64,000 bases of DNA, taken from contig CM018606.1 in NCBI GenBank assembly GCA_009192285.1, positions 1,974,081-2,038,080 on the forward strand, read 5' to 3'. Each line of letters begins with the position of its first letter. The first letter of the stretch is position 1. The position numbers and the translations under genes are program-made. Positions 8,047 through 63,340 of the stretch are shown in pieces. The notes under the pieces were generated by a model that ran no database searches, was not told where the DNA came from, and saw only the letters and a list, made by a program, of their open reading frames with translations. The DNA is from Morchella semilibera. Taxonomy: Eukaryota; Ascomycota; Pezizomycetes; Pezizales; Morchellaceae.

Positions 8047-8761
8047 TATGCTACCTAATACAGCGATAAATCGAGATGTGGTCGTTTATAGGTGCGCTGA
8101 AATCCCAAAATAAAATGAGGGGTTGCCGTTTGACAGGAAGGTCTTGTTAGGTGGGGTTCAAAAATTGGAAGTGTCTTGGTATGCAACTAGCGGCCGGTAA
8201 GTGTAGCGAATGCTTATTCAGCCCCTCTCAAGCAACAACGATTGGTGGATGAAAGCTTTAGGGCTCAGGGTTTTTTCAGCAATAGAATACCATCAGCAGC
8301 CTTTAGAGTTTAGACCCTGATGATGTCACCGAGCGAGTGATACTATGTGATTGCGATTTGTTTCCAAACATATCCATTCACCTCACCTCGGATAACCACA
8401 TTTTGCAAGAGTTCTATTAAGCCATGTTGCGTGATGGTAGCGATCATGATAGGACGCGGCTACGAAGATATTACATAGAGTAATGGCATTGACTCTGGCT
8501 TCTTACGGCACCACCACTCCGCTTGAGTAAATTTACTTCAGATAAGACAAACAGAAATTGATCTAGCTCCAGAATTCAAGAAAGTCTTGAAGCTATACCT
8601 AGGAACTAAAAGTCTAGTACGGTCTGGAAATTTGGCGGCTCCATATTTTATCTTTTCCACTCACCACTTAAAAAAGGTGTAACAAAAAGATAGAGAAAGA
8701 CACCACCACACACACCGATTTGATGGAGATGATGTATGTGGATAGGTAGGATATATAATTA
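8047..8761. other. Intergenic region upstream of RLI1
   Basis: This is the presumed RLI1 promoter. It contains one copy of the recurrent 16-bp motif (8334-8349, minus orientation). No other gene is seen. Confidence 0.5.
8334..8349 (-). other. 16-bp motif copy
   Basis: Reads CACATAGTATCACTCG on the minus strand. A divergent copy of the recurrent motif, in the RLI1 upstream region. Confidence 0.45.
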
Positions 8762-8842
8762 CGACATCGGCAGGATTTGAACCTACGCTCGCGAACGAAA
8801 CAGATTTCTAATCTGTCGCCTTAACCACTCGGCCACGATGTC
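8762..8842 (-). tRNA. tRNA-Ser, anticodon AGA
   Basis: The minus strand folds as a class II tRNA of 81 nt. The acceptor arms GACATCG and CGATGTC pair perfectly and are followed by discriminator G. The A box is TGGCCGAGTGG and the B box GGTTCAAATCC. The anticodon stem ACAGA/TCTGT encloses loop TTAGAAA, giving anticodon AGA, which reads TCT (and TCC after inosine modification). The long variable arm and G73 are serine identity features. There is no intron. No TTTT run lies within about 70 nt downstream. Confidence 0.96.
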
Positions 8843-9224
8843 CGTTTTATTGAAGCTTGAAATATTACTCATAATGGTGAATATCTATATTAACGTATCT
8901 CCATATTTTGAACACAAAGAGTAGCGCGTGTATGTTGAAAATTCAAGCACATTAATTTGTAGTTAACCGTTTCTATAGGCTCCCAAAGCCACTACACGTC
9001 AAAGAGTAAAGAAAGTTTACACAAGTAAATAACATAGCAATTCATCCGAAAAGAGAGATAAAGAAAAAACGAATAAAGAAAACCTTAATAGCCCAAGCTC
9101 CATAATACAAGCCCCCTGTGAAACCCATGGTATCAATGATAATAATAACAAAGAAAAAAAAAAGAATGAAAAATGGGGAGAAAGAAGGGAAAAAAAGGAC
9201 ACGGAAAACTAACAAATATCTCAA
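8843..9224. other. Short intergenic region, 3' side of the coiled-coil gene
   Basis: AT-rich sequence between the tRNA 5' end and the stop codon of the next minus-strand gene, probably its 3' untranslated region. I see no gene. Confidence 0.5.
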
Positions 9225-12200
9225 CTAAGGCCCTACACTATCACCACTAGGGGTCCTATGCCTGCTGAGATCTCTCATATCAATCCCCTCGCTCGAGAAG
9301 TCGAGGCCTAGAGCCGGATAGTTCTTCTTTCGCTTGAAGCTCTCGTTACCCTTCCTATCCTCCTCATCTGCAAACCTCCTAACACTCCCACTACTGCTCC
9401 TTCTCCCTTCATCATCAAATCTACTTTCTGACTCCTCCTCCTCCTCCTCCTCCACCAGTTCATCTCTTAGAATACCCTTATCACCACCCTCACCCCTATC
9501 AGTACCATCGGTTTCTTCCTCTTTCACTGCAGAATTTTCTTTTTCATTCCCGGATGTTGTCCTGCCGTTCTTTAGGTTCCAACTACTCTTTCGAGTGCCA
9601 CGAACACTCCTGGTAGATTGACTCCTTGATAAAAGCCCAAGGCTGGCAGAATACTCATGCTGCCCCAAACCCAAAATGGTACCACTGAGACCTCTCGAGG
9701 GTTTGGCAGGGTTGCTTGTGGTGCTTGGAATATCGCCGGAAATTTCGTTCAAGGAAAGGTGGCGCCTCCCAGGTGCAGCAGAAGGTCGAGGGATAGGACT
9801 ATGTTGGGCCTTCATCCTCATGGCATCAACGCCGGCTTTTGATAGGCGAGAGTTATTTGAACGAGGTTTGGAAAGCAGTGCTCGGGATTGTTCAATAACA
9901 CCCTCAATAACTCGTCGCTCTAAGCCTTCGGCCCTAGCTTCAAGTAGCAGTAGCTCATCTCTCCTCAAGTCAAGTGCAGTCTCAAGGCCAGCAACCTCCG
10001 CAGTAAGCTTGAGTCTCCGAGCGTTGAGTGACTCCGTTTCATCCTTCAAAATCTCAATGGAGTCCTGAAGGTTGGCATGCTCGTCACGGAGGGCGGCTGT
10101 GGCTGCTTCGATAATTTTCTTTTCTGAGTTGGCCTTTTCCAAGTCGTTTTCGGCTTGTCGAGCAGCGTCAATTTTGGCGGTGGCGTCCTCCAGGAGGACT
10201 TCCTTTTGCATATTTAGAAACTCTGCGATATCTGCTGAAGTGGTAAAGACCTGCTGCTGAATAGAGGCTAGAAGGTCTAACTGCGGGAGATGTTTTGCAG
10301 TCTTGGTCTCGGCTGCCAGTAGTATATTTAGTTTCTCTTGAGTTTGCGAGTCATCGTAGGCGGGCGGCGGGGGAATTGAATCTGGTTTTTTGGCGATTGA
10401 GTCCTGCGCATCCCGAAGAAGATGCTTCAACTCTAAGAGAGCATTGAACAAGTTTGGCTGTGACCCTTTCCATTCTGTCTGCAACACATCCACGAGGCCC
10501 ATGACTTCTTGGACCTGCTTCTGAGTCTTGTGATGTTCCTGCACTGTGCTTGTATGGGATTCCTCGACAGCATTCTTGACAGCGAATACGTCTTCCTTGA
10601 CTTCTATGCTGTACCCTTCGACAGCAGCATTTACGTTGTCGATATTCTCTTGTACTATGGCACGAGATTCTTCGATGGAAGCCTTAAGTTTAGCCTCTGA
10701 TGTTCCGATCTTCGCTTCAATCCCGACAACTGAATCCTTGGCCTCTTGCTGTGAGCCCTCAACTACCTTTTTGACCGCTTCAATCTCTTCCTTGACTACC
10801 GTTTTTGCGTTCTCCACAACATCTTTCACACCACTAATTCCTTCCCTAGCCTCAGTCTGGACCCCAGAAATAGCTTTGTTGATATCATTGATGCCTTCGG
10901 CCGTCCCCAGCTGAATTTGGGACGCAATATGCTTAACACTGGTGATGTCTTCCTTTAACTCGGATTTGAGATCCGTAAGAGTTGTGCCGATATGAGCGAT
11001 ATTTTCCCCGGTTTCAGTCTGAAACCCAGAAATACTGTCACTGATTCCAATAAGCCCTTCCTTGGTCTCACACTGGAATTCAGAAACCGCACTTGAAACA
11101 CCAAGAATGCCTTCGGTGGTGACCGTTTGAAAGATTTCGATACCATCCTTAACTTCGGCCACAGATTCCTTCATCTCAACATTGGATTCACTAACAGCCT
11201 TTGCGACAACCGAAATCCCGTCCTTGACTTCGCTGTTTTTTTCCTCGACTAAGGTTTTAACTACGGCTACCTCAACCCGACATTCACCCACAGCGGAATT
11301 GATATCAGAAATAGCATCCTTCTCTTCGGTCTGCCCTTTTGCAATCCCGCCCAGAGCCCTCTTTACTTCGAAGGTGGCTTGTTTAACCTCGAATGCTGCA
11401 TTCCTCATGTCTTCAAATGCCTGTTCGGATTCAGGGGCCGATACTGATGTGCTAACAATTCCGGAAAACTTCTCCATCATCTCCAAAAACTCTCTCCTAA
11501 GGACATCAACCGCGACTTTAAGCTTGTCAGCTTTATCGCCAGGTTTGTCGGTAACTCTGTATTCCACTTTATCAAAAACGGGGGGTTGGTCATTGCCAGC
11601 GTCGCTACCAAACTTGATCGGTTTTTCCATCAGTTCCCGCACAGCCTTTGTCAGTTCTCGAACTGCTTCGAAATCTTTGGATGCCCCAAAACCCTTTTCG
11701 ACAGACTGTAGCAGTTCCTTCCGGAGGGTGTCGATCATTTCTTTTATTGCTGACCCGCTTTCTGATTTAGGGATAACAAGAGCAGATATAGATCTGTCCA
11801 AGGATTGTTCAATATTCTGCTTCAGCGAGTCAATGGCTTCCTTGATTTCTTCATCCTTCGACTTCTCAGACAGCTCCTGAATTTGGGTTTTGAGGGTATC
11901 CACGGTGTCTTTTATTCCAAGCCCTTTGACCTCAGTTGCTAGAGCATCAATAGCTTCCCTTACTTCGACGTCGCTAGAGCCTTCAGGTACCTGAAGCTGT
12001 GTCGATTCCTTGGTCTTTAGCTCTTCGACTGCATCTTTTATGTCTTTTGCTGCCGAACTGAATCTTTCTGCTAGCCCCTCAACCTCCTTTCTTAACGCAT
12101 CTACCCCTTCATTCCCCGTCCCGCTAGCAACACTCCCAGAAAATCCTTCAACCTGAATCCTCAAGGCCTCTAATCCACTCTTTATTTCGTCGTTTTTGGA

Positions 12201-24027: not shown

Positions 24028-26113
24028 CTTGAAAGAACGTAGAGTATCTACTATTCGAGAAGCTAGACAATGCCCGGCGCAGTCAGGAATCCCCGACGCT
24101 ATATATGCGCCCACAAGAACGAATGTGGGTTGATCTCTGTGGTCAGCCTTGCAGGAGCTGTATCAACATGTGTCCAATAAAAATTACACCATCTTGATCA
24201 AGCCACTTGGGTCTTAGACACTGTAACCCCAGAATTCTTAAGGGTTGGCATATCAATCCTTGAATTTGCCTAACCGGCAGTATCTCTAATACGAGGTGCG
24301 GGACATGCCCCGTTGCACGTTTGTGCGAGGGACTGCGGCTGCTTTATTGCACTTTGTGTCACCTGTGCAGGGAAGAGGCCAATCCCATGCAGCAAAATAC
24401 TCGAGTGAGTGGTTGTGTTTGTATCATATTAATGCAGAGCCAATCAATTGGACACGGTGGGTTATATATTAAATTTATCCCTTGTCTGTCAGTAAAATGC
24501 TGACCCCCAGAAGAAGCAAACTTTGGCTTTACTAACAGACCCCGTTATCTCCCTTATCAAATAATAGATGATCTTCCATACAAATTTAGTTCCTTTATTA
24601 TAGGGGGTAGCATACTGGGCGCGATGCGGTTCCCCAACTCGCCGTTGAAGAGTTTATAGGTACATGTTCAACTGTGAATAGTGTGATTGATGAACTGTCC
24701 AACCGACAATCTTAAAGATAGATCATTTCCCACTTTACATGCAATAATACCATCATACCAGTATACATATATTCCACAAGATTCAGCCAGATTTCAATAG
24801 AGAACAGGTTTTTAGATGGCATATATATATATGCATACACATATACCCCCAAAGCTGACTACATGTACCTACATCTGATCGACCTGTGGCTTCATAACTA
24901 CCCCGAGGCCACCAACCCAGGCAACCACCCATGAGATAATGACTGGACATAGCCGGTATGCAGCACGTACATTTAGGTAAATATAGTAAGTAAGGCACTC
25001 ATAGAGGCTAAGATCTCAGAGTTGTAATACGCTCCCACAGATAGATTATATAATTATACAACGGGGGACTAGACGTGACATGGCATGGTGAAGCAGGACG
25101 CAACGTCTAAAAACGAACATTTAGCGGTGTCCAATTGATCTCTTGCCTGCCCAGAAACCCACTCTCCCAAAACTGGACTCAACGATTCACTTCAAAACTT
25201 CTCGGCAAACTGATATATATATCGATGTTTAGACTGTATTTAACTATCGAAACCTCTGGGATTCGTGGCAATCCCTTGATTAGCCACATCGTTGCCGCCA
25301 TAGGATCTCCTAAGCATCACGATAACAAGCGCCACTTAACTCGATTTACAGAGAATGCCCATAAAATAATCACAAGTATACCTTACAACTCTGAGAACAA
25401 GAACTCCAATCGTTCCAAGATAGAGAGGGCTGGTGTCATCCTATGCAGGACGTCAAGTACATCTTGATCACCCCCTCCGGCCCCTTTAAAGTTCTGCTTT
25501 TGACGTATGTGTACGGATAGTTCTAGATGTTTACTGTTGTTTAGCACAACCATTATCACCCCCGAGGCGACACAGAAGTGACTATCCCAATTAGACCTAC
25601 GGAACCTCTTGGGCATGGTCAATGAGGTTTGGGAGGCTTTCTATCATTCGCGCCCCAGCAGTGAGAGTCGAGCAACCGTTCTCCGGTACGACGTCATCCA
25701 AGCGACGTACCAGCGATTCTAGTGACTATAAAACCCCCTCTCATACCAGAAAAATATCTCGAGTATTGTCCTAGGTGCCATACATACATCGACCAAGAAC
25801 CGTTCATCCAGATTCCATCAACATTATTGCAAATTGAAATCGGCTCGCCAAATTCATCAATTCGCGATCGGGTAACAGTAGGCATACATCCACCAGACCA
25901 CAAAGTCTCGGCATAGTGTTTCTGTAAGATCCATTGATATACAAAGACTTTAATGTCATGGTCATAGTCAGATCTAACATGACAGGCGGAGCAATACAAT
26001 GTGGCAGTCATGAAGTTTAGACAATACCGCAAATTTAATGCTCAACTCCATAAATCTGTTGGATTATTATCCCTTTCCAAGAATTAGGTATATATAAATA
26101 TTCTACTGAGGAT
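24028..26113. other. Gene-poor region, 2.1 kb
   Basis: I see no supported gene. There is a TACATGTA palindrome at 24860-24867 and AT-rich sequence with short TA repeats near 24820-24845. Short open frames on both strands lack recognisable motifs. Confidence 0.45.
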
Positions 26114-29275: not shown

Positions 29276-29344
29276 GTTGGGATTTTAATAAGTTGAGATA
29301 AAAAAGGTTTTGAGTTGAAGTAATGTTTGGAGTGGGATCTGTTG

Positions 29345-29382: not shown

Positions 29383-31141
29383 AGAAAGGGAATAGAAAAA
29401 GGGCAGCAATGGTTGTTATATGTCTACACTCTAATATTAATCAGGCCAGAATGGAAGGCTACCTATGGGCAGTGCTTTGCTTCAATGAAAGCCCAGGCGA
29501 GGCCAACCGTAACCACACTTTTTTTACTCACCTGTTCGCAGGCCGACAACGTTTATCACATAACAACCCCGCAGTAATGTCTCTCGTATTACCTACCACC
29601 TCTTGAGTGAGGCACAGTATCGCACTCTAAACCCAACCCTTCGATGCACACCGATTAGAGGGTAGGGATTGAACAGACTTACATGTAGTTAATTACATGT
29701 ATCTCTACTGATCATTCCAATAGAAAGTCCTACCCGAGATCTCGCAGGCTTCATGAGCCAAGCTTCTTTTGCAAGGCAGAATTTAGGGCACTACCATATC
29801 CAACAGTTGAACTCACCTACTGTACGACCCTCGGCGCGCCGCCCTATCCGTACGTTCTTCAAAGGAAAAGAACCCCCCCAGGAAATTATTCTCCGCGATC
29901 GGTAGCTACCACCACCACCACCACCACCGCCACCACCAGAGGCTCAAAGCTGTGAATCGGAATTGTTGCCGCCAAGTCACGGAACGAGTCTCTACTTTAG
30001 TTTAAAGGGTCACCAGATCACTGCCCGTCTGGGGAAGGTAAATTACAAACTCGACGAGGAAGTCAGTAGTGTGCATGGTGAGGTCATAAATCTCCGGTAG
30101 GAAGCACTACAGAACTATCGCTAATGGGGATTGTCACGCAAGGTTCTGAAGAACAGTGGCTTAGCTTTGGAGTGTGACTCCTACTATTTAATTAGCCACC
30201 CAATCCAACCACAATTAACCCCTATTGAACCCTGAATCTTACAATATCTGAGACCAAGTCTTCAGTATGCTATACATGTACTTGTATCGAGAATACCCCG
30301 GCACTGTTAACATTGCAAGGCTTAGACTTCTGGCGGATGGACCTCCGTTCACAACTGCGTTCCAATTGTGGGGTATGTAGCACCAGCCGCTTGCGGTGTC
30401 AAGGGTCAGAGAGCTTCTTTTTAACTTTTTGACGTCGAGATCTACGGCGACATGGACAAAGGAATACTTTCTTTATTGTAGTAGATCAATCTACATACCG
30501 TACCAATGCGCTTGGTTGAGCGTTTAGGGATATCGACCCTCTATCACGCGTTTATTAATTAATTAAGGGTCCCCCACCAACCCGTTCTAGCATACCACCC
30601 TGCAGTGGCTATATCCTGATCCTACCTAGGCTGGTATAAGCGTCGCGAAGATTAAAGTGGCTGGTTACGTATAGTACTCTGCTCCCAATATAGCCAAAGC
30701 TTTCATGGGATCGAAACTTGGCGCCCTTGGAGTAAGCCTTCGCCATATCACTCATCAGTCGTCTCAACGGTTGATCCTGAATACCGGTTACTAGAGTACA
30801 CTGTTACTGTCATGTCGCAAAGAAAAATCGCCTATGTCTGAGTATGTATGGTGCATAAGTACTCAACTTGCAAACAAACCGCCTTGCAAAAGAACTTGAT
30901 TCTCAGACAAGCCCAGAGAGCCGAGAATGATATGTGTGTATGACATTGCAATATGTAGCACCAACTGCAAGTCTGCTTAACGAACCAACCATTTTATGAT
31001 CTAACCGTTCGGGAGCACGGCAAAAAAAAAAAAAAACTTTGTGCCACATCACCACACCTGCATAGGCCAAGGCGGGTGTTTTGTAATTTATTGTGCTACG
31101 GCAAACAGCACATTGAGGTAAAATCAGGCAGCATGTGCGGT

Positions 31142-31157
31142 CGAGTGAGCGCCCATG
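31142..31157 (-). other. 16-bp motif copy
   Basis: Reads CATGGGCGCTCACTCG on the minus strand. Confidence 0.6.
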
Positions 31158-32197
31158 ACCGGCTTGGCATGGCCAGGCGGACATTGTGGCTATGCTGGTG
31201 AGAGAAGAGGGGTTGGGGAGGGTAAGGCCTAGCTAGGCTAGAGATCGATTCGATTGTGATCATGTGTGATCACCAGAGTAGTTATGGTCGAAATGCGGGC
31301 ACGCCCAAAAGCAAAGCATGATACATATAATTATAAGGCTCCAGATGTCGACGGGCCCGAGCCCGCTCATGTTGATATTATAGTGGCAAGGCGCATTCTG
31401 GTTTTTTTCCTTTCCTTTCCTTTCCTTTCTTTTCCTACTCACGTACCTGCAGCTACCTATACTTACTCTACGCATGGCACTTATCTAATTGGCGTCCAGA
31501 ATTCGAAGGGCCAATATATACAATTTATGCATGCAGCTTACAAACGGGCCCGCCGGATACATGTACCTATGTACTTGCTTGGCTACTAGGTATATAGCTG
31601 GGCTAATATATCGATGTCGAGCCCGCATAATTTGTAGGACGGTCCTACTACTTTATAAGACGGAGCCCGTCATACCTCACCCCCCCCCCTTTTCCCATGT
31701 GGCCTGATGTAGGGGGGTTGCGATACGTGCTGTATACTTCTAGTGTATGTAGGTGGATGATTGCTGGAGTATCACCACGGGCACACGTGGCTCTACTCGC
31801 TCGTGGCATGGCGGGTTAAGGAAGAACGCCTTGCGGGGGGGGGGGGGGTAGATACTTGAGTGGTAGCACCAGATCTGGAGGCCGCGGGTCGATTTCTTTG
31901 GGGTGTTACCACGGCCCGAGTGAGGTGAGTGTCGTTTTATGCATGTGTGTGGGCAATACGAGGTAGGACGTGACCCGAAGACTGAATACGGCCGGGCTGC
32001 CAGGAGGAGGAATACCTGCAGTCGGGACCGAAGATGGAGGTCGAGGGGACATGGCAGACTATGGCACGGGTGGTTGTTGGCCGCCGCTGTTGACTCTTGG
32101 GTGTTTTGTGGTGAAATGTGCGCTGTTTGGCTTCGTTATGGTGATGGTGGCAGTGGTGGACGCCTCCAGTTCTCCTGGAGGGCGGCGGCGTAGAGAT

Positions 32198-32213
32198 CAT
32201 GGGGCGTCACTCG
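32198..32213 (+). other. 16-bp motif copy
   Basis: Reads CATGGGGCGTCACTCG, preceded by AGAT as in two other copies. Confidence 0.65.
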
Positions 32214-32969
32214 TGGGTTTGGTGATCGCAATGGGTGAGTCAGTGTGTACGATTGATTAGTGACGAGGTGAGATGGAGAGAGAGTTGTGTATATCGGCTG
32301 TTTTAATGGGGGGGGGGGTGTGGAGGGTCGTATTATGGTGCGGTATCTCCTCCGAGGGTGGGATGGGGTGTAGAACGCTGTAGAACCTTGATGTGTTGAT
32401 AAACATCTGCATCTTCTATGGCGCAAGAAGGTGTGTCAACTTCAGAGGAACTTTTTTTTGTGTGGAAATTAGAGAAAGCTCCACCGTTAGACTACATAGG
32501 CACTGGTACCATTATGGGAGTAGCCCTCCTAAATTCTATAGACTGATTGGCATAGCTTCTCGAGCCATACATGTCGTATGTCGTATGTTGTATGCTTTGC
32601 TCTACTTTGCTCGGGTATTGTTTGTGTGCTCGACGACGTACCGTAAATGTCCCCTAGCTACATAAAGGTTTGTTTGTCTGTCTGTAATGTTCGCAGAGTA
32701 TCTGATATCCAGCTCCTTTTAACTCCCCTGACATCATCCAGAGGCACGCAAATCACTTAGAGCGTGTGTATGTATTCTATATTTTATATTTATGGTCTGA
32801 AAGAGGATCATCAAACGAGTGATAATCCGTGACGGACAAACATGCCACCCCAAAGTGGACGCGAGTTACATAATCAAGAGACAACCCCAACCCCAATTCA
32901 GGCACAGCAGCAGCAAAAGACACCAACGCGACACCACACATCACTCACCACCCAATATCATCACTCTAC

Positions 32970-34617: not shown

Positions 34618-34730
34618 TGTAGATTGGGGGTTGCGGGGGGGTAATGATAGTCTGTGGTGTTTTTTTTTTCTCTTCTCTTTTCTGTGGTTCATTTTTTTTT
34701 ATTTTTTTTTTCTCTGTTCTTTCTTTGTGT

Positions 34731-34746
34731 CATGGGGTGTCACTCG
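34731..34746 (+). other. 16-bp motif copy
   Basis: Reads CATGGGGTGTCACTCG, 114 bp after the SWP73 stop codon. Confidence 0.7.
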
Positions 34747-35229
34747 GTGGTGGTGGCCCGGACTGGCTTGTTGGCCTGGGATGGGATAGGCTGGGATGGG
34801 CCGGGTGGAAAATTACATTTACTCAGATAGCACGCAAAGTAGCATATCCCTCCTCCTCCCCCGCCTCGGGGCGGACATAAAAAAAAAGTCAATTAATGCA
34901 TTCTGTAGTCTGTCTGCAAATTCAATTCCCTCCTTCTGTCCAATGTGATATCACCCCCCTATAGAGCAATGGTGCTCCTCCACCACAGTCTGTAAAACCA
35001 AGACGCCCCGCCCCTCGGGTTAGAGTAGAGTAGAGACGTGGTGGTCGGGGGCAGGATGCAGCCCCGGAAAAGCGATACTATACTATTGGGACGACGTAAT
35101 TAAAGGAGCTGTCAGTGGCGCAAAGGCTTTGACTGGAAAGATGCCCCGGACCCGTGGTGTGGGGTTGGTTCGGCCGGTCGGTCCCTTTCTAAATGCATAG
35201 ATTACATGTGCTTGTGTGTTTGGTTGGGT

Positions 35230-35245
35230 CATGCACCATCACTCG
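35230..35245 (+). other. 16-bp motif copy
   Basis: Reads CATGCACCATCACTCG. Keeps both ends of the motif but not the middle. Confidence 0.5.
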
Positions 35246-38723: not shown

Positions 38724-38889
38724 GGAGTTTGGGGGATGTGGGTATAAAGTGATTGAGGGTGATCAAATATTGTACCAGCCTGATCCGTGTATTATTTTCG
38801 ATCAATCGCATCCCGTTTTTTAAATGAGTTGCTGGGTGCGGCCGGAGGAAGCCACGGCTTTCCCCAGTGGAGCATTTGTATTTGTAGAT

Positions 38890-38905
38890 CATGGGGTATC
38901 ACTCG
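38890..38905 (+). other. 16-bp motif copy
   Basis: Reads CATGGGGTATCACTCG, 167 bp after the stop codon of the Cys-rich gene. Confidence 0.7.
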
Positions 38906-39324: not shown

Positions 39325-39340
39325 CGAGTGACATCCGGTG
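39325..39340 (-). other. 16-bp motif copy
   Basis: Reads CACCGGATGTCACTCG on the minus strand. It forms an inverted pair, about 450 bp apart, with the copy at 38890. Confidence 0.65.
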
Positions 39341-39986
39341 TGCCAAGCATATAATACTATACATGTATAAGTACTTGATATATACTGTACATCACAGCAT
39401 TCCGGATAACCTACGCCTACCAATATACTACCGTGACACCTTGGCTACGATCGGGGAGGATTGTATTGTATTTGTTATTATCACTATTATTATTATCACT
39501 ATTATTATTATTATTACCACTAATTATTGCGCGTAACATTCAGCCGGAGGATTAATTGTGGTTTTTCCCGCGGAAGGGCGGGTCTGACTTCTTAGCTCGG
39601 GGGTTTCCTGCTTTTGTTTTTTTTAATATAGCCACCGCCATTATTTTATTTATATTCTCCACACACACACACACCGCTGGGTTGGTCTGGTGAGGTTCCA
39701 ACCGCTCTCCGTATTGTACTATATCGATACTCACCTATAGTAAAGTATAGTTCATGCGTGCAGTGCCAAATGCGTCTCAAACAGTTGCGGCGGCTTATCG
39801 ATGTGCTGCTATTATTTAAGCCCCTCGGGGAGGGAGATCGGACTTACCTGGGGCTGTTATACGGCTTCTGTGCAGCAGTCAAAGTGTCGATTCCTGTGTG
39901 TCCGCGGGCTGAACAGTTGTCTGCACATTCATCGTTGAACTCCAACGGTAATGAAAACAATATGAAATATTCAATCACACACACGC

Positions 39987-40002
39987 CGAGTGACATCCCA
40001 TG
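39987..40002 (-). other. 16-bp motif copy
   Basis: Reads CATGGGATGTCACTCG on the minus strand, 110 bp upstream of the ARP10 start codon. Confidence 0.7.
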
Positions 40003-40111
40003 ATCCTCACCTCCAAGGTTCCGCGCACGGACCAACAAGTCCCTCTCACCTCAAACACCACGACCACGACCACCACCACCGCTCTCAACATACAGAACCC
40101 CACAACCAACC

Positions 40112-43568: not shown

Positions 43569-46500
43569 TGCTGTGATGTGGGTTGTATTATTATTCTTTT
43601 AAGAATTGTAGTGTAGTGGGTAGTGGTGGTAGTAATGGTCGTGGTAGTTGTGATGGTGAGCAGTGGGTGGGAGGGGAGGGCTCGTGGTTTTGTAGTGTGA
43701 GGATGGGAGTTGAGTGGCTCGTAGTGGTGGTGGTGGTTGTGGTGGCGGCGGTGGAAATGAGTCTCAGGATAAAAGAGACAGTCGCCGGGTTCGTGAGGAG
43801 TAGATTATATGTAAGGTTATCGGACCCTTTACTCGGTAGAATTAAAATGGCTAGTGTAGCCGGGGACAGCAAGCACACTTGCAGGTTCAGATCAGGTAGA
43901 TCAAGGGTCTGCTTAGTCTGCGCGGGGAAAAGCTTGTCTGAATTGGATCCTTGCCTTGGGGGGGGGGGGGGTGTGAGATTGTAGCTGAAAGAGAGAGAGA
44001 GAGAGAGTAAGGTGCGTAAAGTAAGTAGTTTTTGGGGTTGGGGTGAGATGATGATTGTGGTGGTGGTGGTGGTGTATTGGCAGGTATAGTCAGGTGTAAG
44101 TAGCTATTTAGTAATTAGGAAGGGGAGGGGGGGGGGTACGGCTGGTTATGTATGTAGGTAGTCAGGTGTAGTTGATAGTACGGACCAAATGTGGCAGTAG
44201 TAGTACCAGTAGTGCAGTTTTATGGTAGACCAGACCAGGTCAATCACTCGGAAGGTGGAAAAAAAGAAAAAGGTGGGTAACAGATCGATTCATGTGTGTG
44301 AATCCAACCCCCCCCCGGAATGGTTTTATATCCATACCGTCTGGAGGGAAAGAAAAAAAGTAACCACAAAATAGTACCTAATAAACTATGCCACCCGGCT
44401 CGTACGGCCCTCTTCTCTCTCTCTCTTCCTACTCTAGCTACATGTAACTCACTCTCTTTTAGAATTCTCGGCTCCCCTCACCGCCTTTTGCCCCCCCCCC
44501 CCGGTGTGCATCATGGATTTTACGCAATAACCTACATAACATTTATGGTACATGTATATGTACATGTACCTACTGTATAATGCCTGCTCCTGCTCGCCTG
44601 GGTCGGGGCAGTCAGTCGTCGTCGTCCCACGTACATAGGTCGGCCACCAGCGGTATATTCCGGGTTCTGTCCGGTTTGATCTACGTTCCCCAGCAAGTGC
44701 AGCCTTTTCATGTGTTCTGTTGTTTATCAATTAAGAACCGGCCACGAATGGATAGCTGCAACCTCAATTGAACGTTTTAGCTGCTGCGTTGCTGCGTTGC
44801 TGCAGGACCACAATGTTAAAACCCCAACCCTCCATCCTCCAATCGAAATAGGCGGAGAGTGGAGAGGAAGGGAAAAAAGAAAGGAAAGAAAAAAAAAAAA
44901 AAAGAGACCTGAGCTCGGCGGCGCCCATGAACCCACTCTTGCAGACCACCGCAAAAGAAAAATAAATGCGGGGAAGAGGCGGCGAGCAAAGGAAACCTGA
45001 GAACTGATCGGATCGCTCCAATGTCAGTCAAAAAGAAGAGGCCCGAGACAGATCAATCCAGACCGAGTATCCGCGGAGAACAGAGAGGTGGGAGGATAAA
45101 GGCCGATTATGAAGTGTTGACTAAAAAAAAAATTTAAGGCGTCCAGGTTGAAATCAGCCCGCAGAAAAAAAAGGCGGAAAGAAACAATTGTGAAAGCAGC
45201 GACCACCACCACAATTGGAGCGAGTGTGTTTCGTCCGAGCTCTTGCCTGTTCATTCACAAAGAATCACTCGTCGTCACTGGCTCACGGTTGCAGGCCACT
45301 TTCGTAGCGCATCTCTTCCTAACATATGACGACACCTGCAACCCTCATCTTAACCATCATAGCTAGACCTTACGATAGCTCTCCGGTCCACCCTCCACCT
45401 TTCCCCGTCTACCCCCGAGTAACAACTCATCGTCCCGACCGCCTGTTTTCAATCTGGTCTCCGCCGTGTTCCTGCGTCAACCATCTTTGCTTACCTACCT
45501 TAGCGGGCCAGCAATGAATTGAGGGGCATGTTCTTTGCGCGGTAGTACAATACCTAGAGAAAAACATCACAGTATCGAGGATCAATCTTGATCATAGAAA
45601 ATCTATCTCAACTCTTAAAGTTGGTCAGGGTTGATGGCGACATCTTCCCATGAAAAACAAGGTCAGGGGTTTTTTTTTTCCTTTTTTCTTTTTACCGATC
45701 TTGAGTGTTTCTTCCCGATGTCTCTTTAAGAGGTGGAAGTCCTCAAAGTTACATAGAAAGGAATGATTGACCGTTGGCCCCACTCCCCACTCCGCGATCA
45801 GTATCCGTGTCACTCAGTCAAACGGAATTCTTGGTACTGCTACCCTTGAGCTATTCCGATTCGACATGTCTCAAAACTTAGCGCGGGGAAACAAATCCAT
45901 CTACCAGTCGATCATACCCTGTGAGGTGAGAAAATTACCCAGATTCCCCCCCGGTGGGAGGATTCAACTTTTCACAGTTCGATACGGAATCCTAACAATT
46001 GTACAGGGGTCTCGCTGTCTGCTGTTCCCTGACGCCAACAGCTCTTTTTTTTTCTTCTTTCTCTACTTCGAATCTGACGATGTACTTGCGTCTAGACACG
46101 ATAGGTACTTTGAGGTTTGATGTAGAGGTACCATGTACATAAACGGTTTTCAGCCTCCATTCCAAAATCTCCGAGCGTTTTGCCCGTGTGGAAACTACAT
46201 GTACTCCTTCGAGGAACACCGACGTCATATTATATATTGCCGCCGCTCAGAAACGATGGGGGGGGGGGGGGATTGTCGGGGCTTTAACTGTTTGCAACGT
46301 CACGGGAGTATCGGCGCCGGCACTTTACAGCTGCTGCGCATGTCTTCGATCCCTCTCGGTTGGACACCTCGGATTTGTGAGCGGTCAACAGAGGAGCTGA
46401 TGGGAAAAAACAAATAGACAGTCGGTTTATACTAATCACGGGGGGTGAGGGTGGGGTCAGTTAATCGCTGATCATAACCGCTCGTATCGGCTCTGTACGC

Positions 46501-47904
46501 TTCAAGGGGAACGGCGACGGGGGTAGGAGCTCTTCATCTTGGGTAAAATGGCTAGAGTAATAGAAACTAGCAAATGATAATCCTTCGTGGGGAGTTCTCT
46601 TGCGGAAATGAGTTACAAGCTGGGAGAGAACACACCCCCATCTTCGAATTGAACGGTCGCGGGTGTGTCAAGTAGACGCCTACACGTACCGGGGGTTTTT
46701 TCTGACCCGTTAAGATACACTCCGTGAGACTTGTTTCTGCGCGCCGCCTGGAAAGGAAATGTCGATACGTATTTGTGTGTGCGTGTGTGTGTACCCGCTA
46801 CCACCTAAGGTGTAATAGGTAGACTGACTGGATCGTCATTGTGCAGATATGTAATATCCCATCCACGGTAGGAATAGAGTTTTTGTCGTTAAGGCCTAGT
46901 AGACGCATATGTGGGGGGGCCCTTCCTCGAGGTCTTCTTTCTCCTCCTCCTCCTCCTCCTCCTCCTTGTTCCCTCCCAACTCTGCTTTACCCTTACCACA
47001 GACAACGTTGTTCCTGGCAGGTTTCAACCCTACTTTGGTCTTAGCCGCTTGCTGCTGCTGCACGGGAAGCCGGGAAATGTTGGTTCTAGAAGGAAAAGTT
47101 GGTTCCAGAAGGAAGGGAAGAAAACCGAGAAACATGCCGTCATACACGATGGTCGGGTAAGCTATCCGCTTTCAATACTAGCGTTGAAAGGGGAGCCTGG
47201 ACAGGGTTTTGGTATGTCTCACTTGTTGAGACTGGACGACATGATTGATCACTCGGTAACGACGAATCGTGGGAAAAATATATTGGCTTTTTATATGAAA
47301 GTTATTACCTCTCCATTGACATAATAATTCATCATTCATCATCATTTTATATTTCATTTTATTCCCTGTTTGCTTGTCGACTATCATATGCGTTCGCGTG
47401 CCTTTGGAGAGGAAGGAAAACAGGAGGAATAGATTTTTTTTTGTCTTGGTGGATCTAAGTCATTCTTGTTTAGGTTAGGCGTTGTGTCTTGCTATCCAAG
47501 ACATCATTTCAACAACCTCCATCCTCTTGGTCTCTTCTTCTTTCCTTCCGTTTCCCCACTCTCTCCTGTCCTCCACTAGAGTGCGTAAGTATTCCCTTTG
47601 ACCCACATCTCACCGAATCGAATACCGTTGAGTAAAACCTCCCCCCCGCCTGTTCGTTCCTCTTATCAGCATCACCTCTAACACTCTCTCTTAATCCTCT
47701 TACGGCACGTACCCTACCTATGTAGCTAGCTAGCTGCCCCAGAAAGCCACGATAAGGAAGAATAAAGGCCCGGCGAACCAACCTCAACAAAGATAGAGAG
47801 AAAGACCCAGTCCGGTTAAATAGATTAGCTGTCCTACTGACCCAGAAACACAGCTCTCTCCCTTCAGCCCAACCAAGCCCGTCCATCCGCCCCCCCTCCC
47901 CATC
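43569..47904. other. Gene-poor region, 4.3 kb
   Basis: I find no convincing gene. It holds GT/GGT-rich low-complexity sequence at ~43620-43760, G or C runs at 43958-43971, 44491-44502 and 46258-46271, a (GA)n tract at ~43989-44007, a (CCT)n tract at ~46940-46964, TACATGTA at 44439, 44549, 44561 and 46196, and one 16-bp motif at 47240-47255 (+). Confidence 0.5.
47240..47255 (+). other. 16-bp motif copy
   Basis: Reads CATGATTGATCACTCG. Keeps both ends of the motif but not the middle. Confidence 0.5.
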
Positions 47905-48162: not shown

Positions 48163-48913
48163 GGTTTTTTTTTTGGGCGAGAGGTAGCGAGCGGTGGGTA
48201 CGGGTAGGTGAGTGAGTGGTAGGTCGTTTTGTTGTAAAGCTATGGGGTAAGTTACTCTTTCTCTTTCTCAAGATTGGAAGGTATCAGCGAGCGTGGTTGC
48301 AATTGGTGCAAAAGCGAGGGTGGTGGTGCACTCTCTCTTATGGCACGGGGTTTCCGTATTCAAGAATGCTACGATGGCTTTTTTTTTTTTTCCTCACTTG
48401 AAAAGAAGAAAAAAAGGGACAAGGCAAGAAGAGGGCCCAAGGTAAGGTCAGGCACTGTACCACTACGATTGAGACATAGCGAAACAGAAACACCTCCTGT
48501 GGCTGTGCACTCCCATTGTACCTGCTCTACTGGTTCATGCATACATATGTGGCTAGCCCTTCTCGAGCCAATTCCATCCCATCCCCAAAAGCTCATATAC
48601 TCCACAAAAGGGATATATATGTACGTGGGGTAGAGTAGTTGCTGCCTGCCTGTATGTATGTACGTACGAACCCGCTCGTACAGCATACCTGAGAAAGTGA
48701 GTAGGTAGGTAGCCAGATCAGTAGACGTGTGTGGTGCACGTGGCAGCTCGTAATCCGCTGGCTGCGTGAGTAATACCAATTGGTAGGTGGAGTACATATC
48801 GGACGCAGGAATTGGTTTTTTTCCCCTTCCTCTTGCAGTGTGAGGATTTGGAAAGGGAAGGGGGGGTTGTGTGCTTTGGGCTCATGTCTGGGGGGGGGGG
48901 TGGTTTGACGAGT

Positions 48914-48929
48914 CATGGGTTCTCACTCG
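48914..48929 (+). other. 16-bp motif copy
   Basis: Reads CATGGGTTCTCACTCG. Confidence 0.65.
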
Positions 48930-49255
48930 GGCTATGGGCTTGATCCCTGTATGGATATGATATTAACGTTGACTGCTGTCAATGATTGTACGGACATGTA
49001 TCCCTAGTGTCTAGACATCTATCAAAGAAAAAACCGAGGCCATGGGTTGGTGGGTCCCGAGTCTATGGCGGCTACGACGCGGGACCCCCCCCCCCGGTCC
49101 GTGGGCTTGTTGTTGTCTTAGCCGGTGAGATATCTAGTAACTGTTTCTGTACATAGTGTCTGTATATGGCCCGAGCACTCTTGAAATGGTCTATAATAGG
49201 GGGGGTATTCGAGACTTGTGGTCGGTGGTGGTGGTGTGTGCTGGGTTGGTTTAAT

Positions 49256-49271
49256 CACAGGATGTCACTCG
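49256..49271 (+). other. 16-bp motif copy
   Basis: Reads CACAGGATGTCACTCG, in the same orientation as the copy 342 bp upstream. Confidence 0.65.
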
Positions 49272-52553: not shown

Positions 52554-52584
<31 letters not shown>

Positions 52585-52689
52585 GGAGAAAATAAAGACT
52601 TTTCGGGTTTAGAATTTTTGGCTGATGAAAATTATACAGGCTACAATTACTCCCCCATCAATCAAAGAAAGAATTGAAAGAAAAAAAAA
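51272..52689. other. Intergenic region, 1.4 kb
   Basis: Contains an A run of about 26 at 52555-52581 close to the 3' end of the RRM gene. I see no gene and no motif copies. Confidence 0.5.
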
Positions 52690-55095
52690 TTACGCCTTTG
52701 ACTTTTTGGCTACCTTCTTGGCCGCTGACTTCTTGCCATCCTTCGCGGCCCCGGCAGGGACAGCAACGGCTTCAGATGCAGCCTTCTCCTCAGCAGCTTT
52801 CTTGGAGGGGACGCGTTTCCTCTTCTCTGGAGTAGCAGCCTCCTCGGGAGCAGCAGCCTCTTCGACGGCAACAACCTCCTTGGGAGTGGCTTCCTCCTTG
52901 GAAGCCTTCTTCGGGGGAGCAGCCTTCTTCTTCTCAGGTGCAGCCTTTTTCTCGGAGGCGGCTGTCTTCTCGGGGGGGGCCTTCTCAGGCGCAGCCTTCT
53001 TCTCGGGGGCGGCCTTCTTCTCGGAGACAGCCTTCTTCTCGGAGACAGCCTTCTTCTCGGAGACAGCCTTCTTTTCGGGGGCAGCCTTCTTTTCGGGGGC
53101 AGCCTTCTTTTCGGGGGCAGCCTTCTTCTCGGGGGCAGCCTTCTTCTCGGCGGCCTTCTTAGCGGGGACGGCCTTCTTAGAGGCAGCAGCGGTCTCCTCG
53201 GGGGCAGCGGCTTGAGGAGCAGCCTTGGCCTTCTTTCCCTTCTTGACGGTAACCTCAACCTCCATCTCCTCAATTCCATCTCCATTCTCCGCCACAGCCT
53301 CAACGGCCTCAACGGCCTTCTCTACAGCTGCCTCAACAACCTCCGCAGTCTCCGCAGCGGCCGTCTCCTTCTTACCCCTCCTCCGTTCATTCTTCTTAGT
53401 AGCAGCACCCTCTTCAGTAGTAGCGCCCTCTTCAGCAGCACCTCCTTCAGTAGCAGCGGCCTCTTTGGGAACGTCCTTCTTGGGGGCGGTCTTCTTCTCG
53501 GCGGGCTTCCTCTTCTCGGCGGGCTTCTTTTTCTCGGTAGGCTTCTTCTCGGTAGTCTTCTTTCCGGTCGTCTTTTTCTCGGCAGTCTTCTTTTCGGAGG
53601 CGGCCTCTTCACTCGCATCGGTTGAGGAGGCAGCTTCAATGGCCTTTACGGGTTCCGCAGCCTCGATAGCCTTGGCGAATTCCGGGGTAATAATTGGAGC
53701 CTCAAACTCGTAGTCGATACCGAGTCTCTTGAAGTTTTTGGCGATGCTCTCTCTCTTTCTCATCTCCTTCTTTTCCCTCTCCTTCCATTCTTCGATAGTG
53801 TGTTTCCTTTCGTGTCTAGCTTTCTGCGCCTTGGCGCCTGAGTGGACATGATACTTTGTATTTGCGCCCTTGAATAGCTTCTCGATGAACTCCTTGTCGT
53901 CAGTGGAAACCTTCTTACATTTAAGGATGTGGCCGAAGAGGAGGTAGTTGTCCATTGTCTCCTGGGCAGCTTCGGCAGCTACAGAGTCAGCGAACTCTAT
54001 GAAGGCGTAGTGCTTGCTGTGGCCAGTCTTCTTGTTGCGGGAAAGACGGAGACGGGTGACCTTGCCAAACTGGGAGAAGTAGGAGCGCATCTCCGCCTCG
54101 TAGAAACCGTGGGGAATGCGGCCGAGGTAGACAACGCCTGGAACGGGCTAGAGTAGTTGATATGTTAGAATTGGCAGATGAAAGACTGATGTGAGCTTTG
54201 GGGAAGGTGAAGAGATTGGTGCAGGAAGATTCAAGATGCAATGGTAAAATATTTTTTTCAATCATAGGGTAAATAAAGGATCGTCGTATCATCTTATCAT
54301 ATCAATTGATGAGATGTAAAGTGTACTGTCCTGTGGGGCAGTTAAAAGAAGGAAACTCGGAAACTTACTTGGCCAGCCTTGGCCTGGAGAGCGGCAATCT
54401 TCTTTTGAACCTTCTTTCCATTCGGAATCTTTGCACTCGCGAACTTTGACTTGTCGCCCTTGCTCAATCCCTTTTGAGCGCCATCTTCGTCTTCCATCTC
54501 TTCATCAGAACTCTCAAACCCTTTCAAGAGTGTCGCAGTCTGGTCGTCGATTTCCTCCTCTGCGCTCTCATCCGCGCTGTCATATCCCTCTGCTGGCTGA
54601 GCATCTGAGTCGACGTCGAGGGAGATCATTTCCTCCTCATTTGACTCCTTCTCCCCTTTCTCCTCCTCCTTCTTCTTTTTGCCCTTCTTCGCCTTTGGCT
54701 CCTCCTCCTCCTTCACCTCCTCTACAGGAGGTGGGGCAGCGGCCTCACCCTTCTTCTTCTTTCCCTTCTCTTTTACAGCAGCAGGAGCAGCTTTAGTGCC
54801 CTTTTTCTCCTTCTTGCCCTTCTTCGACTTGAGCGTATCCCAACCACCATCTTCAGACTCTTCGCCATCGGACATAAAATCAGCAGCCTTCTTACGTGTG
54901 GAGATTCTTGTCGGCGGTTTTGAGGCCGCGGCGACAACGGGTGCAGAGGATGATGGTTTCGCCTTTTTGGCGGTGGGCGAGGGCGCGCTGGCCGCGGCTG
55001 CGTTTTAGAGTTAGCCTTTGCTTCAATTACTAAGTAGAAGTGGGTAGGTGGGTTTGTTTACCCTTGCGCTTCTTCTGCTTGGTCTCGAATGTCAT
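52690..55095 (-). CDS. Nucleolar RRM protein, NOP15/NIFK type, with histone H1-like repeat tail, 706 aa
   Basis: The RRM resembles yeast Nop15 and animal NIFK, which act in maturation of 60S pre-ribosomes. Exons are 55062-55095, 54369-54997 and 52690-54147, with introns of 64 and 221 nt. The start reads MTFETKQKKRK. Residues ~40-190 are Lys/Glu-rich. The RRM runs from VPGVVYLGRIPHGFYEAEMR (RNP2-like) to HYAFIEFADSVAAEAAQ (RNP1-like). It is followed by KCKKVSTDDKEFIEKLFKGA and a basic coil, typical of the family. The last ~330 residues are Ala/Lys/Pro/Glu-rich with tandem EKKAAP hexapeptides. Nop15 in yeast is about 220 aa, so this is a heavily extended form. Confidence 0.88.
52965..53155 (-). 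repeat. 18-bp minisatellite inside the NOP15-type gene
   Basis: About ten tandem 18-bp units encode EKKAAP or EKKAVS. Copies differ mostly at synonymous positions or between the P and S variants, so expansion was recent and the frame is preserved. Confidence 0.9.
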
Positions 55096-57147
55096 GGCTG
55101 GTGGATATATGTGGGTATTGGTAATTGAGAGGTTGCGTTGTGTCGTGAGAGTGGGAAAAAAATTCTTATCAGGTTGGGTGGGTGTTTGCAGGGTAGAGTC
55201 TTGGCGCCTGGTCCCCAGTTAGCCCTAACTTGTGCTGCCAAGAGACTTCTATCAAATTATTGAAAGCGGTTTCAAGTAATAGCAGACACAAAGTAACGGA
55301 AGACATAAGAGAAGACGCTGGAGAACCCAGTAATGTATTTTGAGTAGGAAATATTGGCAGAGTGAGTGTTTGGTGGTGTTTGCTGATGCGAGTGATTATT
55401 GGTGATTTAGCCTTATTGTTATTATTTACAGTCGAATATCGAATACATCAACCATCATATCATACCAATAAGGCAGATGAGATTGCTACAGTAGCTTGTG
55501 GAAGGGAATATGTAGAGTATGTAGACTGTTTTATTACGGCAAAGCTCGAAGGAGTCACTTCGGCGGAATGCGGGCTTCATCCGACATTCTCCCACGATGT
55601 CAGTGTAAATTGCATAACTTATAATTATTGAGGGAGGAATAGGTCAATAGGTCCTTGTACCAGTATGAGAGGCAATAATCGGTTTGACATCTTGAGTACT
55701 TAGCTCATCGTTCCAGGACCAGAGCGACCGCACATAGATAAATATGTCTCGGCCTGAAACGTTGACAGAATGAACGTGTTTCATGGTTGAATGGATTGAG
55801 CTGGACCGCCCCATTCCATCCCTATATGCAATGCCGTAATTATATAATCAAGGCTTCCTTAAAGCGAATATATGTATAGCAAAATATACGTATCCCTCGG
55901 ACGTACACCGGTGGGGTTCTGAAGTAGCGCTCTTTCTTATTTTCCCTGATATAAAACAATATGGCCGTTCGGAGTGGGACTTTACCGGCTTGATATCTAA
56001 GGACAAAAGAACACCTGATGTGTTGATTAAGCATCTTTGATCATCATGTCCCAGTAATTACGCGTAGCCATTGGGTTTGTAGAATGTCGCTCTCGAGCCC
56101 GGGCATTGCATTGCATCCATAGCGACAATATTTGGAACCTCCTAAACAATCGTTAAGTGCATGTTTCTCCAGAAGTATTTGGATTCACCCCATACAGTTT
56201 ACTTGAAGGAGCTTTCATACCGATGTGATGATCTGCCTGTTTTCCAAGATGGCTGGTCCTCGGGGGAGGAGATGACTCTAGACTCATTCTAAATTCCGGT
56301 TAGTAGGGTTTGTAAGGCCTAGGATGTGTATAGTTGGCGGTTTGGATATTAAATTGAAATTTCTTGTCAGAGTTTTTTTCTCTACACTAAACATAGTATA
56401 CATGTAGAGGAGAAGCTTTTGGAGTGAGGGGCTAGCTTTATCCTCATGGCCACCTGTACTTACACTTTTCTCCTAGTTAGCCTCAACCCGCTTCCAAACC
56501 TAAAAGTCTAAGCCCGCGGGAAACAACTCTTGTGACTAACTGAGAAATACATTGATTTATATACCCAACGAGCTTTAGACCTGTATTCTTTTTAAAATAC
56601 TGGCGTAAATGTTTACCACAGAGATTTAATCATAGATTCAGTAAACAAAGCAGTTCCTGTGGCGTTTAATCAAACTTCACGGCCAGGAGCCAACCCGCGT
56701 GATAATGGAAGTAAGGGGCTCAAAAGGCGGGGTACCCTCAATGCTATCATAGTGTCTTTGTTTGCCTTGATATTCTTCGGAGTTCAATCTCTAAACGAGA
56801 TAGTTCTAAGGGATCTTCCGGTCCAATTTTACGCGTCTTCATGTCATATCCATCATATGAGGTGTTTCATAGAGCACGAAGTGAGAATAACGGCCTGCTG
56901 TAGAGGAAACCACCACTCAATCATTGGCTTCCCCAATCAGTACTAGGCCCCAGCCTCCCCGCCAAGACATCGCGATGGACCCACTCAGTTTTTTCCCTTC
57001 CGTCGCTTGGACAACAACAACCCTTCCCAACATTCGCCAGAGCACCTCATAGATCCACAACCACTAACTTTCCTGTCCCTACATAAAACACTTAAAAGCA
57101 CAACCCAAGAAACAAACCTCTCATTTACACATACGATCATAGCCGCG
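55096..57147. other. Intergenic region, 2.1 kb
   Basis: Divergent promoter space between the RRM gene (-) and the 833-aa gene (+). One TACATGTA lies at 56399-56406. I see no supported gene. Confidence 0.5.
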
Positions 57148-59863: not shown

Positions 59864-61040
59864 AATGTGTTTTACGGCGGCGGGACGGTCATAAAATATC
59901 TATATTTTCTTGCTTACTTCTTCCTCTTCCTCCTTGTGTGGATTTCCTTAACCCGGTATTCGGTTGATTGATTGATAATTTTAACCTCTCTCTTGTTATA
60001 TTTCTTCTTTTATGGTGTGTATTCCTTTTCCTTGTATCCGGTTTCTGTTTTGCGTTTGAGGGGCGTTTATTTTTTTTCCTGTTCAATTTTTCCCAATTTT
60101 TTTTCTCTTTTGGTGCCATGGTGGTCAGGCCCGTAGTTATGTGTGTGTGGGGGGGGGGGGGGGGTCGTAAGAATCTTCCCCCTTTTTTTTTTTCTTTTAG
60201 TGGATGGTGACGGCGACATTTCAAAAGAGAGAAAAAGAAGAAAAAAGATGAAGAAAATACGTACAACGTTTTCAGTAACGAGACCTTAGCTTTTAGTTTT
60301 AGTTATATTGGGGGGGGGGGGAATTATGGAGTGGATGAATTACCGAATAGAGCATGAGTAAAGAAGACCCAGCTGGGTTACGCAATGAGTGAGGATGCAC
60401 GTGAGATATGGGAATATATGGGTGAGATGACAAATGAAGTAGCTGCTGTTGTTGAAATAGTTTGTTGCATGGTAGGAAATACATGTATCCTAGATCAACC
60501 AGGTAAATACATACATGTATATACAAGTACATACCCAATTAAGAGGCTCTGCCAATGTCCGGTCTCTCTAGTTACTTACATGTATACAACTATTCTTTTC
60601 TATTGTAGCCTTATACCTGGTGTGCGTGGTGCGGTGGACGCCCCAGCCTTAGCGAGTGAAGATGTTGACTGCAGCTACGAAACGACTCGTCAATAACAGA
60701 ACAGAGAGAAGACTTCGTTACCAATTAATTGACTTGACTGTATACCCTCACAGAGTCGGAGGCCACACACAATAAACGAAACATCAGGGGACGGAAGTCA
60801 CACATCTCGATCGAGTGATATCTGGTGCTTCACGGCAAACCTTTCGCAAACCTAGAGTACATGTACTCTAGTCTCCTCTCCCCCTCCGCTCCCCCAATCC
60901 CATACATTTCATTGCCCTGAAATTAATGATGTAAACAAAAAAAAAACCTTTCATTGCCTTTGATGCGTTGCCAAGGAGATTGATCTTTCCACAAAGGGGG
61001 GGGGGGGGGGGCTCATAAACTACAACGACACAAACTAAAG
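59864..61040. other. Intergenic region, 1.2 kb
   Basis: Contains G runs at 60149-60164, 60310-60321 and 60996-61011, TACATGTA at 60480, 60512, 60577 and 60859, and one 16-bp motif at 60812-60827 (-). No supported protein gene. Confidence 0.5.
60812..60827 (-). other. 16-bp motif copy
   Basis: Reads CACCAGATATCACTCG on the minus strand. Confidence 0.5.
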
Positions 61041-61199
61041 CATCGTGGCGTGGCCTAGTGGTAATACACTGGGCTTCGTCATATGACCACGACAGGTTCA
61101 AATCCTGGTGGGAGCAGTGATGAGAAAGCCCAATATGGTAGCGACGCTCTTGAGGGATGAGTACTTCTTCACGTAAGTCTTTTGTTGCCGGCTTTTTTT
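61041..61199 (+). ncRNA. Putative RNA polymerase III transcription unit, tRNA-like head
   Basis: A perfect A box (TGGCCTAGTGG, 61051-61061) and B box (GGTTCAAATCC, 61095-61105) start 44 bp apart, the spacing of a standard short tRNA. The acceptor ends do not pair, the D-arm region instead forms a 7-bp hairpin (CCTAGTG with CACTGGG), and the T-arm has a mismatch, so this is not a normal tRNA. T runs at 61180-61183 and 61193-61199 are candidate Pol III terminators, giving a transcript of about 140-160 nt. It could be a tRNA pseudogene, the head of a SINE, or a novel Pol III RNA. Confidence 0.5.
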
Positions 61200-61529
61200 A
61201 TGAGTTATGGAACAGCTACTAGCCACCATGCCCAAGAGTTGGGAAGTAATTTATATTTGTCGAGTTGCATCAAGCGGAGCTATATGATAATAGAAATGCA
61301 TGGAAATACAAATAGAAAAAATTGACTGGATCTAGCCTTGAATATGGTGGTCGCGACACCAGAACAAATATTGAGCTCGTTGCATCATCTTAAGGACCCC
61401 CGGGGTACATGTTGTCGTGCTTAATCAATACCCCCGTCACCCTCAACCAATAGGTTGCGGGGCAAAAGGATGTAATCTAGTACATACATGTAGTAGATAC
61501 ATGTAGTAGATAGTAGATCTTCTAAATCA

Positions 61530-61559
61530 CCCCCACCCCCACCCCCACCCCCACCCCCA
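61530..61559. repeat. (CCCCCA)n tract
   Basis: Five tandem CCCCCA-type units. The complementary G-rich strand could form a four-stranded structure. Confidence 0.85.
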
Positions 61560-63261: not shown

Positions 63262-63277
63262 CGAGTGATAGCCCGTG
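63262..63277 (-). other. 16-bp motif copy
   Basis: Reads CACGGGCTATCACTCG on the minus strand. Confidence 0.65.
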
Positions 63278-63324
63278 ATGGGGACATACATAACAGGGAT
63301 GACCCTTACTAACAGCGAAGAGCA

Positions 63325-63340
63325 CGAGTGACATCCCGTG
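63325..63340 (-). other. 16-bp motif copy
   Basis: Reads CACGGGATGTCACTCG on the minus strand. Starts 63 bp after the previous copy, in the same orientation. Confidence 0.7.

Follow-up and report, generated by a model that had tools for sequence, protein, structure and literature searches.

What does a short bipartite word do that recurs again and again between the genes of a morel? The question is raised by a 64,000-nucleotide stretch of the Morchella semilibera genome (GenBank assembly GCA_009192285.1, contig CM018606.1, positions 1,974,081 to 2,038,080; here called the window), in which a first-pass annotation had picked out a 16-bp motif, CAYGGGNTRTCACTCG, as either a bipartite protein-binding site or the conserved end of a short mobile element. 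The motif is very probably a DNA-binding site of some kind. We favor, with moderate confidence, the reading that selection maintains each copy as a site bound by a single abundant sequence-specific DNA-binding protein, for which a chromatin-organizing or distal regulatory role is our guess.

Within the window, TCACTCG was counted 27 times, against a mean of 6.09 and a maximum of 14 in 100 dinucleotide shuffles, so the excess reported earlier stands, although its figures (about 23 copies, about 8 expected) do not. Preceded by CAY at a distance of 9 bp, the word occurs 18 times rather than 14 (8 copies on the forward and 10 on the reverse strand rather than 7 on each), and the same shuffles give a mean of 0.24 such copies and never more than 2. 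The gap between the halves is exact, as had been described, and the reported clustering beyond 31 kb holds for 16 copies instead of 13, a concentration that follows from the uneven spread of the motif (sites per 10 kb in the sample described below: mean 2.43, variance 4.94). None of the 18 copies lies in an exon of our own gene models, which agrees with the claim that all are outside coding exons; one is placed in a doubtful predicted intron (Table 1). The consensus CAYGGGNTRTCACTCG, in contrast, proved too strict, fitting 5 of the 18 copies, and the motif is 17 rather than 16 bp long, because a T usually precedes CAY (13 of the 18 window copies and 61 of 73 sampled sites).

Across the assembly (23 contigs totaling 56,756,124 bases; 7,341,407 bases in the longest listed contig), CAY-N6-TCACTCG is found 10,028 times (4,992 on the forward and 5,036 on the reverse strand), against 183 occurrences of the reversed pattern (99 and 84), which amounts to about one copy per 5.7 kb and a 55-fold excess over the control; with up to one mismatch, the counts are 13,697 and 1,513. 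Genome-wide counts no higher than expectation had been named as the outcome that would speak against the motif, and the reversed word, used in place of shuffles, gives the opposite result. The total is somewhat inflated because two pairs of scaffolds, C9/C10 (9,952 bp compared between the stretches L025 and L026, 100% identical) and C12/C13 (matching motif positions), look like near-duplicate copies within the assembly. Both pairs occur in an assembly made from a single-spore isolate.

The finer analysis rests on a 314-kb sample made up of the window and 25 further 10-kb stretches. Stretches L009 to L011 and L029 to L033 were picked with the knowledge that sites lay there or nearby, which biases the density of the sample upward and should leave motif shape, gap, and exon counts unaffected. 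Most counts leave out L026, the duplicate of L025, giving 304 kb and 73 sites; the gap, variant, and gene-distance counts include it (314 kb, 74 sites), and the flank profile was taken from an earlier sample of 264 kb and 56 sites. When 8-base noncoding words were ranked by their excess over a low-order model (runs of 1- to 4-base units excluded; L026 and the repeat-rich stretches L015, L021, L023, and L027 left out), the top two were ATCACTCG, which is part of the motif, and TACATGTA, to which we return below.

The refined consensus, TCAY-RRNNTV-TCACTCG, joins two halves, TCAY and TCAC, whose starts lie 10 bp apart, i.e., one helical turn between the TCA cores. In the column counts, CA, Y, and TCACTCG are preset by the search pattern; Y is T at 39 and C at 34 of the 73 sites, the two columns after it hold G or A at 65 and 64, column 8 holds T at 43, and column 9 holds T at none; across all of them the central bases vary widely and the core is constant. 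The gap is just as sharply defined: TCAY-N6-TCACTCG occurs 62 times in the sample, and every other gap from 0 to 19 is represented 0 to 5 times. Genome-wide, TCAT-N{0,30}-TCACTCG gives 6,689 matches against 567 for the reversed pattern, and among the 100 matches listed of these 6,689 a gap of 6 is found in 77, no other gap in more than 3. One-base variants are rare beside the 62-copy core, with 12 for the first T, 11 for the last G, and 0 to 6 for each other fixed position, all alternative bases at a position being added together. No column outside the 17 bp is conserved in the flank profile from -19 to +36, confirming that the flanks are not otherwise conserved, and one more TCAY half, another turn upstream, was seen at 1 of 60 sites, with 0.47 expected. 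Because neutral decay of copied DNA would not leave a sharp core amid variable surroundings, we infer that selection acts on the core.

Genes were modeled with our own hidden Markov model (HMM) gene finder, which yielded 84 models, the L026 duplicate included. Predicted exons hold one of the 73 sites, where 24.6 are expected (binomial, 3e-12), and predicted introns hold 8, the remainder being intergenic. No promoter preference was found for the 74-site set relative to the predicted starts of coding sequences: 2 of 52 upstream distances fall within 200 bp, a share of 0.04 compared with 0.10 for random intergenic positions, and a promoter element was rejected on this ground. Orientation to the neighboring genes is balanced (30 same and 29 opposite downstream, 29 and 23 upstream), because of which an RNA signal was rejected as well. 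In 20 predicted intergenic gaps shorter than 1 kb (8.9 kb), no site was found, where the rate for all intervals taken together would predict about 3.4. GC-rich intergenic stretches are denser in sites (26 in 36 kb with GC of 0.48 or more versus 5 in 30 kb with GC below 0.44), and no GC peak is centered on the sites, GC being 0.48 to 0.51 across 600 bp on either side.

The composition around the sites is asymmetric by strand. On the motif strand, GC skew passes from +0.086 upstream to -0.102 downstream at 10 to 110 bp (71 of the 73 sites), G-rich and then C-rich; the difference of 0.188 compares with a null of 0.028 (standard deviation, 0.039) and was not reached in any of 4,000 resamples (n = 71). 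At 110 to 310, 310 to 610, and 610 to 1,010 bp, the G/C difference is not above the null. Twelve skew tests were made in all, and the remaining ones include T/A at 10 to 110 bp (P = 0.015) and at 610 to 1,010 bp (P = 0.036), G/C at 10 to 510 bp (P = 0.009; overlapping the 10- to 110-bp range), and a reversed G/C difference at 1 to 2 kb (P = 0.005).

Copies of the motif also keep company with one another. Nine neighboring pairs in the sample are less than 100 bp apart, with about 1.5 expected, and genome-wide searches for two motifs at most 30 bp apart, in which the tandem and convergent patterns required only TCACTCG from one partner, gave 217 tandem, 126 convergent, and 65 divergent matches, with none in the reversed controls; many of the convergent matches were registered twice, once from each partner. 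Gaps were binned among the matches listed (up to 100 per class), which, after removal of scaffold duplicates and reciprocal rows, comprised 94 tandem, 66 convergent, and 48 divergent pairs. Among these, divergent pairs peak at a gap of 9 (10 of 48; Poisson probability times 31 gaps, 2e-4), with mostly unlike intervening sequences, and tandem pairs peak at a gap of 1 (12 of 94; 0.002); a Rayleigh test for a period of 10 gives P values of about 0.004 for tandem and about 0.013 for divergent pairs. Spacing preferences of this kind suggest that the bound proteins touch one another on a single helix face. The copies in the window are listed in Table 1.

Table 1. Copies of the 17-bp motif in the window (positions counted from its first nucleotide)
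Copy	Position	Strand	Remark
TCACATAGTATCACTCG	8334..8350	-	
ACACAACCACTCACTCG	24402..24418	-	base 1 not T
TCATGGGCGCTCACTCG	31142..31158	-	
TCATGGGGCGTCACTCG	32197..32213	+	
TCACGGATTATCACTCG	32816..32832	-	within doubtful predicted 462-bp intron
TCATGGGGTGTCACTCG	34730..34746	+	
TCATGCACCATCACTCG	35229..35245	+	
TCATGGGGTATCACTCG	38889..38905	+	
ACACCGGATGTCACTCG	39325..39341	-	base 1 not T
TCATGGGATGTCACTCG	39987..40003	-	
TCACAAAGAATCACTCG	45255..45271	+	
ACATGATTGATCACTCG	47239..47255	+	base 1 not T
TCATGGGTTCTCACTCG	48913..48929	+	
TCACAGGATGTCACTCG	49255..49271	+	
TCACCAATAATCACTCG	55389..55405	-	
GCACCAGATATCACTCG	60812..60828	-	base 1 not T
TCACGGGCTATCACTCG	63262..63278	-	
GCACGGGATGTCACTCG	63325..63341	-	base 1 not T; 63 bp from copy 63262..63278, same strand

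A sharp core with an exact gap, variable flanks, and rare one-base variants are the marks of a site for a sequence-specific DNA-binding protein, and the bipartite protein-binding site that had been proposed is well supported by the gap, the rarity of variants, exon avoidance, and the preferred pair spacings. The putative protein would read 17 bp, about one and a half turns of DNA, recognizing the TCAY half and the TCACTCG half with weaker preferences (R, R, T, and not-T) between them; it may do so with either a pair of like domains, adjacent on the same helix face, or one multi-finger array, and the copies would persist since binding is selected. A role in chromatin organization or distal regulation is guessed because the sites almost match the genes in number, fall in the longer intergenic stretches, and occur in both orientations with no promoter preference in the sample. 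For scale, the genome of the yellow morel Morchella crassipes, from a monospore isolate, is given as having 11,565 genes, a median intergenic length of 1,603 bp, and a median intron length of 63 bp (PMC7014384). A motif about as numerous as the genes, distally placed, used in either orientation, and clustered appears to fit a chromatin-organizing or distal regulatory factor better than a promoter factor; the chromatin role, taken on its own, is a tentative proposal that we hold with some doubt.

Comparison with known fungal sites was made in the same sampled noncoding DNA, where the motif is found 60 times and its reversed form never. Apart from CCAAT, each known motif was set against its own reversed word. 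The Reb1 core, TTACCCG, differs from the morel core and shows 21 copies versus 19 reversed. AP-1 (20 versus 22), E-box (54 versus 60), CRE (0 versus 4), STRE (550 versus 620), and the telomere box (16 versus 13) behave alike; GATA-like TGATAAG (34 versus 21) has the largest excess among the eight known fungal motifs counted, and CCAAT, counted without a reversed control, has 104 copies. The site of the budding yeast general regulatory factor Abf1, CGTNNNNNRNGAB (PMC12305957), is not enriched in this DNA (80 versus 107), nor is its form CGTNNNNNRTGAY (18 versus 21). As none of them shows a clear excess over the reversed word, Abf1, Reb1, E-box, CRE, AP-1, the telomere box, and STRE were all rejected as the motif. 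Abf1 is nonetheless similar in being bipartite and asymmetric with an exact gap, and its RTGA half resembles the morel TCAY read on the other strand; however, in place of a CGT half 5 bp from RNGAB or RTGAY, the morel motif has CGAGTGA, and its halves are further apart. A search with the Abf1 family PF04684 had no match in the genome and none in any of 14 control genomes either. Yeast general regulatory factors are described as keeping nucleosome-depleted regulatory regions open; the morel sites differ in their absence from the sampled intergenic gaps shorter than 1 kb, and the scarcity of sites near the coding starts of our models is unlike a promoter-proximal factor of this kind.

Closer in overall character are the animal zinc-finger sites of CTCF and REST, which have a long, strict, asymmetric core and some 10^4 genomic copies, are intergenic in both orientations, and lack promoter preference. 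The morel motif shares all of these traits as they are generally described, although its sequence differs. To our knowledge, fungi have no CTCF, and we know of no sequence-specified architectural code of comparable size in them; that the motif marks a morel counterpart of CTCF, i.e., one long-footprint protein that would organize chromatin contacts or domains from about ten thousand noncoding places, is an analogy that we consider rather unlikely. The DNA uptake sequences of Neisseria and Haemophilus are likewise short exact words, very densely spaced and seldom found with one mismatch, whereas the morel motif is eukaryotic, mostly noncoding, and bipartite and implies no uptake system.

Several observations weigh against a selected binding site with a distal role. 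The gene models were made without RNA evidence, and of the 8 sites assigned to introns, 7 are doubtful, because the predicted intron is longer than 200 bp for 5 of them and measures 181 and 184 bp for another 2, compared with the published median of 63 bp. Four repeat-rich loci hold no site in 40 kb, where 9.6 are expected, but they were noticed post hoc, among eight siteless loci of the first 20 sampled; L009 shares repeats with other loci yet has three sites. Of 59 distances measured downstream from predicted coding ends, 19 lie at 600 to 1,000 bp, about twice the random share, an excess that was noticed post hoc. Among the matches listed, the convergent pairs show neither helical preference (P of about 0.26) nor a significant peak (0.2), and some tandem pairs sit in small arrays (three copies 18 bp apart in L009; steps of 23 bp at C1:5477752-5477827) and are not independent.

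The alternative that survives best is an ordinary activator or repressor site that serves the promoters or enhancers of very many genes and has no part in chromatin architecture. The sharp core, the exon avoidance, and the homotypic clusters would be expected of it as well, but the lack of upstream enrichment, the like use of upstream and downstream flanks, and nearly one site per gene, very many for a regulon, leave it an unlikely though serious contender. That a replication protein uses the motif as an origin or for fork control is improbable: noncoding placement independent of gene orientation and the skew change across the site would suit it, yet replication skew should span kilobases and here is not above the null in the ranges from 110 to 1,010 bp, and fungal origins are expected to be sparser than one per 5.7 kb. 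We regard as very improbable a motif favored by mutational or gene-conversion drive, as a recombination or repair signal, irrespective of function at each site. A motif at which DNA is cut is normally worn away by conversion at the break, GC does not rise at the sites, and if the drive also worked in exons, more than 1 of the 73 sampled sites should lie there, even though scatter over noncoding DNA without gene-related placement and local strand asymmetry would agree with it.

That the motif is a conserved terminus or core belonging to some very short mobile element or tandem repeat, multiplied by copying, is hardly credible, even though the high copy number and the few tandem arrays would suggest it. 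No column is conserved beyond the 17 bp, the central bases vary where the core does not, and a 1.2-kb stretch surrounding two window sites has no other copy beyond a single 56-bp match of 82% identity; the four repeat-rich loci are siteless, though picked after the fact. The mobile-element end was rejected on the grounds of its unconserved flanks and single-copy surroundings, and that part of the first-pass annotation is unsupported. Chance, composition, or assembly artefact, to which the near-duplicate scaffolds lend something by inflating the total, is refuted by the reversed control genome-wide and the shuffles in the window.

The second abundant word, the palindrome TACATGTA, has 22,206 genome copies versus 3,723 reversed and 21 copies in the window versus 0.68 in shuffles (e.g., at 5263-5270, 29680-29701, 60480-60584, and 61485-61505). 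In the sample, 119 of 124 copies are intergenic, nine neighboring pairs lie 10 to 14 bp apart, and no co-location with the 17-bp motif beyond chance was found in 304 kb. It resembles ACANNTGT, which we take to be the site of Iroquois-type homeodomains. The window further contains a tRNA-Ser (AGA) gene on the reverse strand at 8762-8842, its sole Rfam match at the gathering threshold, and an internal repeat at 52822-53208 (77% over 203 bp) within the open frame of an RRM protein.

That the motif was undescribed is not contradicted by a literature search covering mostly titles and the beginnings of abstracts, which, within that incomplete coverage, returned no description of it or of any morel binding motif; the word "motif" is absent from the main text of the M. 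crassipes genome paper (PMC7014384). The words printed in PMC2725324 and PMC8081344 turned out to be a PCR primer and cloning oligonucleotides. We class the motif as a putative protein-binding motif unusual in its strictness and number. This strictness lets its sites be listed from sequence alone, and with nearly one copy per gene it must engage a large share of morel noncoding DNA. Identifying its protein would give access to gene regulation and chromatin biology in morels, and it would directly test whether a fungus employs an architectural or distal regulatory factor that is abundant and specified by sequence.

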